Shown here: one piece after another, positions 16,764 through 34,278 of the stretch
Layout: the number at the start of each line of letters is the position of its first letter
How positions within the stretch are numbered: the stretch's first letter is position 1
From: Pseudomonadota bacterium
GTDB lineage: Bacteria; Pseudomonadota; Alphaproteobacteria; Rickettsiales; UBA3002
Length of the DNA stretch: 39,318 bases
Assembly: GCA_963205305.1 (NCBI GenBank)
Contig: CAUJIC010000047.1
Coordinates: 1 to 39,318, forward strand
Reading direction: 5' to 3'
Made by a program: the position numbers and the translations under genes
Notes under the pieces: generated by a model
What the model was told of the DNA's origin: nothing
What the model saw: only the letters and a program-made list of their open reading frames with translations
Database searches by the model: none

Positions 16764-18230
16764 CTAGCTCTCCAACCGATAATTTGGCGCTTCTTTGGTG
16801 ATGGTAATGTCGTGCACATGGCTCTCGCGCAGGCCAGCCCCTGTCATCCGCACAAATTTGCAGTTATTGCGCATGGATTCAATGGTCGCGTTGCCCGTGT
16901 AGCCCATGGAGGCTTTGAGCCCGCCCACCAGCTGGTGGATGACCCCCGCCACCGAACCTTTGAACGGCACACGCCCCTCGACCCCTTCGGGCACCAGTTT
17001 CAGGGCTTCGGTCACCTCTGCTTGGAAGTAACGGTCGGCCGAGCCTTTGGCCATGGCGCCCACACTGCCCATGCCGCGATAGGTTTTGTAGCTGCGGCCT
17101 TGGAACAAAATCACCTCGCCGGGGGATTCCTCAGTACCCGCGAACAGCGAGCCGATCATCGCCACGTTCGCGCCAGCCGCAATGGCCTTCGCAAAATCGC
17201 CACTGAACTTAATCCCGCCATCGGCAATGATGGGGATGCGCTTTTTCTCGGTCACCGAGCGTACATCCATAATCGCGCTCAGTTGCGGCACACCCACCCC
17301 CGCCACCATGCGGGTGGTACAAATGGACCCAGGGCCGATGCCCACTTTCACCGCATCTACCCCCGCAGCAATCAGTGCTTCGGCTGCTTCGGCAGTGGCA
17401 ATGTTACCTGCAATCACCGCGACATGGGGGTGTAACCTCTTGATCTCCTGCACGGTTTGCAAAACGCCTTTGCTGTGGCCGTGCGCGGTGTCCACAATAA
17501 TCACATCCACATCGGCAGCGATGAGTGCTTCGGCGCGCGCAATACCCTCCGCCCCCGTACCGACCGCGGCGGCCACACGCAAACGACCTCGCTCATCCTT
17601 CGCGGCTTGCGGATATTTCACTGATTTTTCAATATCTTTAACCGTTATCAACCCCACGCAGCGATAATTCACATCCACCACCAGCAGCTTTTCGATACGG
17701 TGTTGGTGCAGCAATTTCTTTGCTTCTTCCTTGCTGATGCCCTCTTTGGTCGTGATCAGTTTCTTGGTCATTAAGTCAGCCACAGGCTGCTTTAAATCGG
17801 TAGCGAAACGAACATCGCGGTTGGTGAGAATACCCACCAACGTGCCATCCTTTTCTGTCACGGGGATGCCCGAGATATGGTTCGCATCCATCAGCGCATA
17901 GGCATCGGCCAGTGTTTTATCAGGGGTGATGGTAACAGGGTTGACCACCATGCCCGATTCGAACTTCTTCACCCGCGTTACTTCGTTGGCTTGTGCCTCG
18001 AGATCCATGTTCTTGTGGATGGTGCCGATACCGCCATGCTGCGCCATAGCAATCGCAAGGGACGACTCCGTCACCGTGTCCATCGCCGCCGACATGAGGG
18101 GGATGCCCAGCTCAATGCCCTGCGTCAGCTTAGTTTTTGTATCGGCATCGCGCGGCAACACCTCGGAAGCGCCTGGCTTGAGCAGCACGTCATCAAACGT
18201 TAAGGCGAGGGGAAATGGGGAATCGGTCAT
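16764..18230 (-). CDS. guaB: Inosine-5'-monophosphate dehydrogenase GuaB
   Basis: A 488-residue IMPDH, the usual bacterial length. It oxidises IMP to XMP with NAD, the first committed step of GMP synthesis. The TIM-barrel core is interrupted by a CBS pair (about residues 95-205). The catalytic loop [11 protein letters not shown] holds the nucleophilic Cys, and the flap region [12 protein letters not shown] is present. The ATG has GAGGA 5 bases upstream. A perfect -35-like TTGACA lies upstream at 18288-18293, but its partner -10 is poor. It is followed by rsmB 63 bases downstream. Confidence 0.97.
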
Positions 18231-18324: not shown

Positions 18325-18861
18325 TTATTTGGCAACGCTCGCCACCAACCGGTCTGATAGCTTCACGGGCATGGAGGTTAATTGGCCAAGCATTTCAGTG
18401 CCCTTCGCCGCTGCTTTGGCACAGCCGATGGCTGCACCACCTACAAACAATACTTCAAGCGGAAGCGCCAATGGCCCAGTAGATGCAATGGCACCATGAA
18501 TAACAGGGTTAGTAGCGATGCTGGTGAAGCAGGCCATGCCAGCCATTGTGCCACTTGCCTTAACCGCGGAATCCACCGCACTCGTTCCTACTTTTTTGGG
18601 TGTAAAATTTTCTGCTACCGCGCTGCCCGCACTAGAAGCCGCATGCGCCGCACCGCCAATGTCACCATCGAGCAGGTCGTGACCACCTTTTTTGGCGGCA
18701 GCGCGCACGCGCGGATCCATCGCTGCGGTAAAAAGTCCTTCACTCATGCTGACAGCAACCCCCGCAAGCGGCATGCCCTTGAACTGCGCGTCCATAATCT
18801 GCCTAAAGGCATCTTTAGCCATGGCTTTTTGGGTTTCTTGCTCTTGCGTGGTGACCTTCAT
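18325..18861 (-). CDS. Unknown Ala/Gly-rich protein with an upstream Pho box
   Basis: A 178-residue protein I do not recognise. The N-terminus (1-45) is amphipathic and helical, and the middle is rich in Ala, Gly and Ser. Two moderately hydrophobic stretches at about 102-126 and 130-150 (containing CFTSIATNP and LPLEVLFVGGAAIGCAKAAAKG) may touch a membrane. There is no signal peptide. The start has AGGAG 7 bases upstream. A perfect match to the E. coli Pho box lies 64 bases before the start and reads in the gene's direction, which suggests induction when phosphate is scarce. Flanking genes are guaB and rlmE. Confidence 0.75.
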   Translation of the reverse strand: MKVTTQEQETQKAMAKDAFRQIMDAQFKGMPLAGVAVSMSEGLFTAAMDPRVRAAAKKGGHDLLDGDIGGAAHAASSAGSAVAENFTPKKVGTSAVDSAVKASGTMAGMACFTSIATNPVIHGAIASTGPLALPLEVLFVGGAAIGCAKAAAKGTEMLGQLTSMPVKLSDRLVASVAK

Positions 18862-18891
18862 AAACGCACTCCTATTTAGGTGGGGGCTTAT

Positions 18892-18910
18892 GCTAAAAAT
18901 ACGCTAAAAA
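18892..18910. repeat. Two 8-base direct repeats at 11-base spacing
   Basis: GCTAAAAA occurs at 18892-18899 and 18903-18910, exactly 11 bases apart, between the Pho box and the start of the unknown gene. One-turn spacing is typical of tandem binding of a response regulator, but the site could also be part of the AT-rich promoter core. Confidence 0.3.
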
Positions 18911-18924
18911 CGGCCATTTCTCAA

Positions 18925-18942
18925 ATGACAGTTTTATGACAG
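18925..18942 (-). promoter_or_regulatory. Pho box (predicted PhoB site), perfect
   Basis: On the minus strand the site reads CTGTCATAAAACTGTCAT: two CTGTCAT half-sites 11 bases apart with an AAAA linker. This matches the E. coli Pho consensus CTGTCATA(A/T)A(A/T)CTGTCA(C/T) at all 18 positions. It faces the unknown gene starting at 18861. Confidence 0.8.
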
Positions 18943-18966: not shown

Positions 18967-19659
18967 CTAACCGCGAAAACCCATGGCCACTACATAGCTT
19001 TCCGCCGAATCAGAGCGGGAGGATTTGGGTTTGGCGTGCTTCACGGTGGCAAAATCTTTCTGCATTTGCTTCAGCAGTTCGCTCTCGGTGCCACCTTTGA
19101 GCACTTTGCAGATGAACGTGCCACCCTGCTCTAGTACCTCGGTCGCGAACAGATAAGCCAACTCGCACAGATGGATAATGCGCAAATGGTCGGTCGGCGT
19201 GTGGCCTGTGGTGTTGGCGGCCATGTCGCTCATCACCAAATCCGCTTTACCGCCGAGCAGATTTTTCATAATCTCGGGTGCATCTTCGGCGAGGAAATCC
19301 TGCACAATCAGCTCGGCACCCACAATCTTGGGCACCTCCAGTAAATCACACCCCACAATTTTGCCATGGCCACCGAGCTTAGCCACAGCCACTTGGCTCC
19401 ACCCACCTGGGGCGCAACCCAAATCCACAATACGCATGCCCGCTTTCAGCAGGTGGTATTTTTCATCGAGGTCGATCAGCTTGAACGCCGCGCGGCTGCG
19501 GTAGCCCTCGGCCTTTGCCTTGGCCACATAGGGGTCGTTCAACTGCCGCGCCAGCCAGCGCGCGCTGCTATTGCTGCGCTTCTTCGCGGTTTTCACATTC
19601 ACATGCAACCCGCGCGAGCTGGATTTTTTATTGATTTTCTTGGTCGGTTTTTTGGCCAT
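18967..19659 (-). CDS. rlmE: 23S rRNA 2'-O-ribose methyltransferase RlmE (FtsJ)
   Basis: A 230-residue FtsJ-family enzyme with a Lys-rich N-terminal extension of about 30 residues. It methylates U2552 of 23S rRNA in the late large subunit. The SAM-binding stretch RIVDLGCAPGGWSQVA, the catalytic Lys in SRAAFKLIDLDEKY, Asp in LVMSDMAANTTGH, Lys in FICKVLKGG and Glu in SAESYVVAMGF reproduce the K-D-K-E tetrad. The ATG overlaps the gppA stop (TAATG), so it is translationally coupled to gppA. Confidence 0.95.
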   Translation of the reverse strand: MAKKPTKKINKKSSSRGLHVNVKTAKKRSNSSARWLARQLNDPYVAKAKAEGYRSRAAFKLIDLDEKYHLLKAGMRIVDLGCAPGGWSQVAVAKLGGHGKIVGCDLLEVPKIVGAELIVQDFLAEDAPEIMKNLLGGKADLVMSDMAANTTGHTPTDHLRIIHLCELAYLFATEVLEQGGTFICKVLKGGTESELLKQMQKDFATVKHAKPKSSRSDSAESYVVAMGFRG

Positions 19660-34013: not shown

Positions 34014-34196
34014 CTACATCTGGATTTGCTGCGCTTGCGCATGTCTGCGCTTGTCTGCCTCTCGTGCAAGCCAGTCGGGTTCTGCACTACTACCCTGCTG
34101 CTGTTGCTGCAGAACAGTTGTTCTAGGGCGATTCTGCCGCTGGGGCGGGTTACACTGCTTTTCGTCATTGGATTGCTGTTGTTGCTCAACCGGCAT
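34014..34196 (-). CDS. Small Gln-rich protein with an upstream Pho box
   Basis: A 60-residue hydrophilic protein with two short glutamine runs (QQQQ and QQQQQ) and charged, probably helical ends; it has one Cys. I do not recognise it. The ATG at 34194-34196 is preferred because AAAAAAGG lies 9 bases upstream; the ATG at 34205 touches that site directly. A Pho-box-like site lies 64 bases upstream in the same orientation. It ends 45 bases before crcB. A Cys-rich frame on the other strand is the mirror of the Gln codons. Moderately supported. Confidence 0.5.
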   Translation of the reverse strand: MPVEQQQQSNDEKQCNPPQRQNRPRTTVLQQQQQGSSAEPDWLAREADKRRHAQAQQIQM

Positions 34197-34260
34197 ATTA
34201 TCCATCCTTTTTTATGGTTTTGTTAGTCCTGCAGACTAGCATTATCCACCACATTATTGG

Positions 34261-34278
34261 ATGACAGTTTAATGACAA
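34261..34278 (-). promoter_or_regulatory. Pho box (predicted PhoB site), two mismatches
   Basis: On the minus strand TTGTCATTAAACTGTCAT matches the E. coli Pho consensus at 16 of 18 positions with the two half-sites 11 bases apart. It lies after the rarA stop and reads toward the small Gln-rich gene. A -10-like GATAAT follows about 14 bases later. Confidence 0.6.

Follow-up and report, generated by a model that had tools for sequence, protein, structure and literature searches.

What does a perfect PhoB box do in front of a gene that has no recognisable relatives? The question is raised by a 39,318-nt contig of a Pseudomonadota bacterium from the rickettsial lineage UBA3002 (CAUJIC010000047.1, assembly GCA_963205305.1), the whole of which we call the window. 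There, a first-pass annotation had proposed that an unrecognised 178-residue protein, here P0001, is a new phosphate-starvation factor. We found that the box is one of a set spread over about 43 promoters of the same genome, that nearly all boxed genes are short, mostly unrelated orphans, and that in related genomes the box stands upstream of the virB2 pilin gene of a type IV secretion system. From these sequence patterns it appears fairly probable that PhoB controls the secretion system together with fast-turnover candidate effectors, P0001 among them. The features at the centre of the question are the following.

18925–18942, minus strand: PhoB-type box CTGTCATAAAACTGTCAT, two CTGTCAT half-sites spaced 11 bp, 0 mismatches.
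18325–18861, minus strand: P0001, an intact 178-aa open reading frame (ORF) encoding an Ala/Gly-rich orphan, candidate regulon member and candidate secreted effector.
18869–18873, minus strand: probable AGGAG ribosome-binding site (RBS) of P0001, 7 nt before the ATG.

The box faces P0001 from 63 bp upstream of its ATG, and the 18-of-18 match that the first-pass annotation had read there was confirmed. Its judgement that such a match was very unlikely to arise by chance was borne out as well, as the window holds 2 matches with at most 3 mismatches against 0.07 expected from dinucleotide shuffles. The genome-wide scan that it had suggested revealed the scale of the set: across the window's own genome (G000; 1.82 Mb, 80 contigs, 95% complete), the pattern TGTCATNNAACTGTCAT with at most 2 mismatches gave 44 sites, compared with 0 for the reversed pattern. 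A weight matrix built from 30 sites, AATTGTCATnnAACTGTCAT, gave 49 sites at a score of at least 18 in the retrieved G000 stretches, representing 43 distinct promoters, and 38 sites at a score of at least 14 over 193 kb versus 0 in reversed sequence, where the 193 kb had been chosen for holding sites and only the contrast with the reversed control counts. The regulon list combines the pattern searches with the retrieved stretches. Among ORFs with a clear RBS the median distance from box to ATG is 55 bp, a spacing like that at P0001, and some boxes form arrays of 3–4 half-sites repeated every 11 bp, in line with regulators of the OmpR/PhoB type. The first-pass annotation mentioned neither the second box in the window (34261–34278) nor the roughly 43 similar promoters in the genome; its observation was correct and understated, and attention should go to the regulon rather than to P0001 by itself.

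The genome encodes a matching regulator. Its phoB product matches TIGR02154 (NCBIfam) with 330 bits, above the cut-off of 296, and is one of five OmpR-type regulators, the others being CtrA, a PmrA/QseB-like protein, an OmpR-like protein and a degenerate one. It is 50% identical to PhoB of E. coli MG1655, and the DNA-reading recognition helix, RTVDVHIRRLRKAL, is identical between the two, so the absence of phoB that would have undone the first-pass reading of the box does not apply. Across 131 genomes of the order we counted 575 sites versus 21 with the reversed pattern. Among genomes at least 90% complete, at least 4 sites occur in 25 of the 37 with PhoB and in 0 of the 53 without it (Fisher 1.6e-13, a test that ignores shared ancestry), and the five genomes that carry 5–18 sites with no PhoB match are every one below 90% complete. 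PhoB thus looks necessary, though not sufficient, for the box set. None of 189 other alphaproteobacteria from across the class has more than 4 sites, which marks the expansion as special to parts of this order. A similarity comparison with plasmids and phages was of no help in placing the order, and an RlmE scan of named genomes gave only two distant Rhodobacterales. Duplicated virB4, several VirB6 genes, the 54% GC of the window and the existence of sister families with small genomes, among which stretches of f12 and f20 have 29–46% GC, lead us to infer that within the Rickettsiales the lineage is basal and of a free-living type.

It is promoters in relatives that tie the box to secretion. 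VirB4 is present in 7/7 family genomes examined, mostly in 2–3 copies, and the full set of VirB2, VirB6, VirB9, VirB10 and VirB11 was identified by Pfam in relatives. In G001, of the same genus, a VirB2 pilin (PF04956, 7e-17) is followed by virB4, virB6, virB9, virB10 and virB11, and virB2 stands behind an array of four half-sites. We observed a box upstream of virB2 in all five genomes inspected (G001, G002, G004, G005 and G006, from three genera), where VirB2 identity outside G001 is based on sequence resemblance and gene order, and where G008 was left out of the count since its contig starts inside virB4. The virB2 boxes form 11-bp-periodic arrays in G001 and G004, and G005 and G006 have a further box between virB2 and virB4. 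In G000 itself, contig C5 carries virB4 and three VirB6-type genes near a boxed gene of the DUF2610 family. Two details of these arrays stand apart: in G001 virB2 and its box array are present as two tandem copies spaced by about 1.18 kb (L205:8804-10478), and in G004, which has PhoB, the virB2 array (L226:2038-2081) consists of GTAAC half-site variants and only 3 standard boxes lie elsewhere, so that the half-site may be drifting in this genome.

The remaining boxed genes are distinguished mainly by what they do not resemble. Only 3 of 32 boxed proteins had a Pfam match (E 0.01), versus roughly 15 of 25 control ORFs comparable in size, an approximate figure as the control tally lists families; the three are a DUF2610 protein, an SLT transglycosylase and a helix-turn-helix (HTH) protein. 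A PHROGs search of the boxed proteins returned transglycosylase/endolysin and HTH families only, with one member each, and neither glycine zippers nor membrane segments were enriched above controls. Boxed copies of the DUF2610 gene (L202:12271-12549, L131:1582-1854 and L295:5244-5528) occur in G000 and G001 and, from another family, in G087, with 92% identity within the genus and 71% across families. P0001 is an orphan: a scan of the contigs of named genomes found no homologue, and no match better than chance came from a comparison with 55 further genomes of the order. Its three best matches (E about 0.003–0.01) fall in larger frames, the one from the same genus being Ffh, and were rejected as homologues. 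Pfam, NCBIfam, PADLOC and PDB gave no credible match, so that after the remote-homology search proposed in the first-pass annotation the intact ORF still has no credible family, and the AlphaFold model of the protein alone is mostly helical and of low confidence (predicted local distance difference test 46.8), too poor for a fold search.

The position of P0001 on the chromosome offers a view of how boxed genes change over time. It occupies a slot bordered by two genes, and all three lie on the same strand; the box falls in the non-coding sequence that separates the rlmE end (18967) from the P0001 ATG.

18967–19659, minus strand: rlmE (FtsJ family), the upstream border of the slot.
16764–18230, minus strand: guaB (IMP dehydrogenase), the downstream border of the slot.

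The same slot holds an unrelated 155-aa boxed gene on the other strand in G001, a 121-aa boxed gene in G007 and a 278-aa boxed gene in G008, these and P0001 being mutually unrelated, and it holds no boxed gene in G004, G005, G006, G009 and G013. Different or absent boxed genes between constant flanks indicate that boxed genes come and go, a turnover that, by analogy, resembles that of effector genes in other systems.

A further feature was found at the C-terminus. In G000, 16 of 40 boxed ORFs end in arginine versus 23 of 210 others (p=3e-5), a feature noticed in this set before it was tested there; G001 served as the independent test and gave 7 of 20 boxed versus 9 of 98 others (p=0.006). Overall arginine content does not explain the excess, and boxed tails are more hydrophilic than those of controls (p=0.008 and 0.0015). 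Sec-like N-termini are rare among boxed proteins, yet no rarer than in controls.

We propose that phosphorylated PhoB (PhoB-P) would bind the tandem TGTCAT-N5-TGTCAT repeats, with the second copy near −35, recruit RNA polymerase, and activate virB2 along with the orphan genes. The regulon would then cover a type IV secretion system of the P-type (rvh-like) and about 40 small, rapidly changing proteins. P0001 would be one of these proteins, which may serve as substrates of the secretion system or as the substrates' helpers. Secretion of the orphans is suggested by their probable co-regulation, orphan status, turnover and tails; binding of PhoB to the box, the low-phosphate signal, and the production and secretion of P0001 are all predictions from sequence. 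A bolder version, which we put forward only tentatively, would have PhoB, a housekeeping phosphate regulator, recruited near the base of the Rickettsiales, or earlier, as the master switch of the rvh system and its cargo, with the box marking hitherto unrecognised effectors of basal Rickettsiales, P0001 included. If this were true, phosphate shortage would be the signal to act on other bacteria or on protist cells.

Several observations weigh against control of secretion and effectors by PhoB. The virB2 operon was not found in the G000 assembly, which has one VirB4 only, so the secretion link comes from relatives. PhoB is missing mainly in reduced families, and its correlation with the motif is confounded by phylogeny. 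The boxed transglycosylase, HTH protein and DUF2610 protein need not be secreted, and C-terminal net charge is the same in boxed proteins and controls. In five other families the terminal-arginine signal is absent (2 of 33 boxed versus 8 of 110); as an order-wide signal it was rejected, having been seen only in this genus, and it is at most a genus-level trait. P0001 itself departs from the pattern, as it ends in SVAK, with lysine as the last residue, and no good −10 is seen in its promoter about 10 bp past the second half-site, where such an element tends to lie in the other boxed promoters; over the whole set the signal there is a weak TA..T.

Of the other explanations, the one nearest to the original proposal is a phosphate-starvation regulon that has expanded in this lineage and consists of cytoplasmic or envelope proteins; the secretion operon would then be another target and the orphans would not be cargo. 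The canonical box and PhoB fit it, as do the few boxed genes that look related to the cell wall or regulation (SLT transglycosylase, HTH protein). The loci inspected, however, lack the boxes at pst/pho transport genes that characterise a classical phosphate-starvation regulon: we found no promoter box at pstS or phoB in G000 and G001, so the check on pstS suggested in the first-pass annotation came out negative in both genomes, nor in the phoU stretches of G001, G002 and G005, where phoU of G000 begins at a contig end with its promoter outside the sequence and pstCAB was not located. The virB2 operon is boxed in all five relatives, the targets are almost all orphans, and boxed proteins of this genus share the C-terminal feature. 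We consider this explanation unlikely, and the claim for P0001 as a new phosphate-starvation factor is not supported, given boxes in front of dozens of unrelated orphans and, in relatives, a type IV secretion operon; what stands of the first-pass annotation is the PhoB-type box, the presence of phoB, the non-chance match and the unrecognised protein. The unboxed phosphate loci would also agree with a different binder, an OmpR/PhoB-family regulator of the ChvI/BvrR type that perceives acid or envelope stress upon contact with another cell. In other alphaproteobacteria, virulence and VirB systems are under the control of such regulators. Agrobacterium tumefaciens chvI is said, in the title of a 1993 report by Mantis and Winans cited in PMC4086400, to complement an E. 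coli phoB mutation, which implies that ChvI can use Pho boxes. None of the five OmpR-type regulators of G000 received the name ChvI, although a model for it may be absent from the library, and the number of sites follows the TIGR02154 PhoB; this we regard as slightly less likely again.

The swapping of genes at the rlmE–guaB slot and the scarcity of relatives of boxed genes between genomes could also be read as the mark of mobile or phage-derived cassettes with a host-readable promoter, for which secretion would be incidental. In the genomes compared no integrase adjoins the slot (no search was made for flanking repeats), the PHROGs matches are limited to the two families named above, and virB2 carries the same box, all of which make this very improbable. 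Equally improbable is that ORF 18325–18861 is not a gene and that the box drives an unannotated small RNA or has no function. The lack of a P0001 homologue, the weak −10, a third-codon-position GC fraction of 0.53 compared with 0.62–0.69 in the neighbours, and a 165-codon ORF on the antisense strand would be in keeping with it; 178 open codons, a properly spaced RBS, a box-to-ATG distance like that of other members, and the lack of an Rfam match at the locus speak against it.

Among known systems, the E. coli Pho regulon shares the box, the recognition helix and the two-copy 11-bp repeat architecture, but the targets here are small orphans and, in relatives, virB2, with the inspected phosphate loci unboxed. 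The tens of sites in 1.8 Mb likewise contrast with 0–4 in other alphaproteobacteria at the same stringency. In Legionella, PmrA and CpxR each directly switch about 30–40 scattered Icm/Dot effector genes, and CpxR also controls several icm/dot genes (PMC6989116). That arrangement, a winged-helix response regulator over scattered type IV secretion effector genes, is the same as the one proposed here; the system differs in being type IVB Icm/Dot with other regulators and boxes, and its effectors are proven, whereas ours are candidates. Agrobacterium VirG, also OmpR-type, switches the vir genes of a VirB system through a 12-bp vir box (PMC4086400), and differs in being a dedicated regulator, whereas in the present lineage the housekeeping PhoB seems to fill that role. 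The Rickettsiales rvh system is likewise P-type with duplicated VirB4 (PMC9352585, PMC11077975). Verified rickettsial effectors, bar a few RARP homologues, were not found in basal families (PMC9352585), and Schön et al. were able to link hardly any effectors to the rvh machine there; P0001 resembles none of the families searched. The boxed 92-aa DUF2610 protein recalls cREM-3, a reported RvhD4 interactor of ~93 aa (PMC11077975), a likeness of length and a lead only. PhoB is unmentioned in the papers searched on Rickettsiales evolution and effectors, an incomplete, open-licence literature in which absence is no proof of novelty.

A motif that flags a secretion operon and dozens of linked orphans would provide a list of testable effector candidates in such families. 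The box set would further suggest a cue, phosphate, for when the secretion machine is used, and would show a core nutrient regulator rewired to secretion before host dependence evolved.

Two further box-bearing sites in G000 extend the set. On contig C21, a box array at L089:1361-1393 lies upstream of ctrA and points away from it, toward a 93-aa orphan ORF. In the window, the second box scores higher with the weight matrix than the box of P0001 (31.0 versus 27.4), and the ORF behind it is probably a second regulon member.

34261–34278, minus strand: second box of the window, TTGTCATTAAACTGTCAT.
34014–34205, minus strand: P0002, a Gln-rich orphan ORF of 63 aa, 55 bp downstream of that box.
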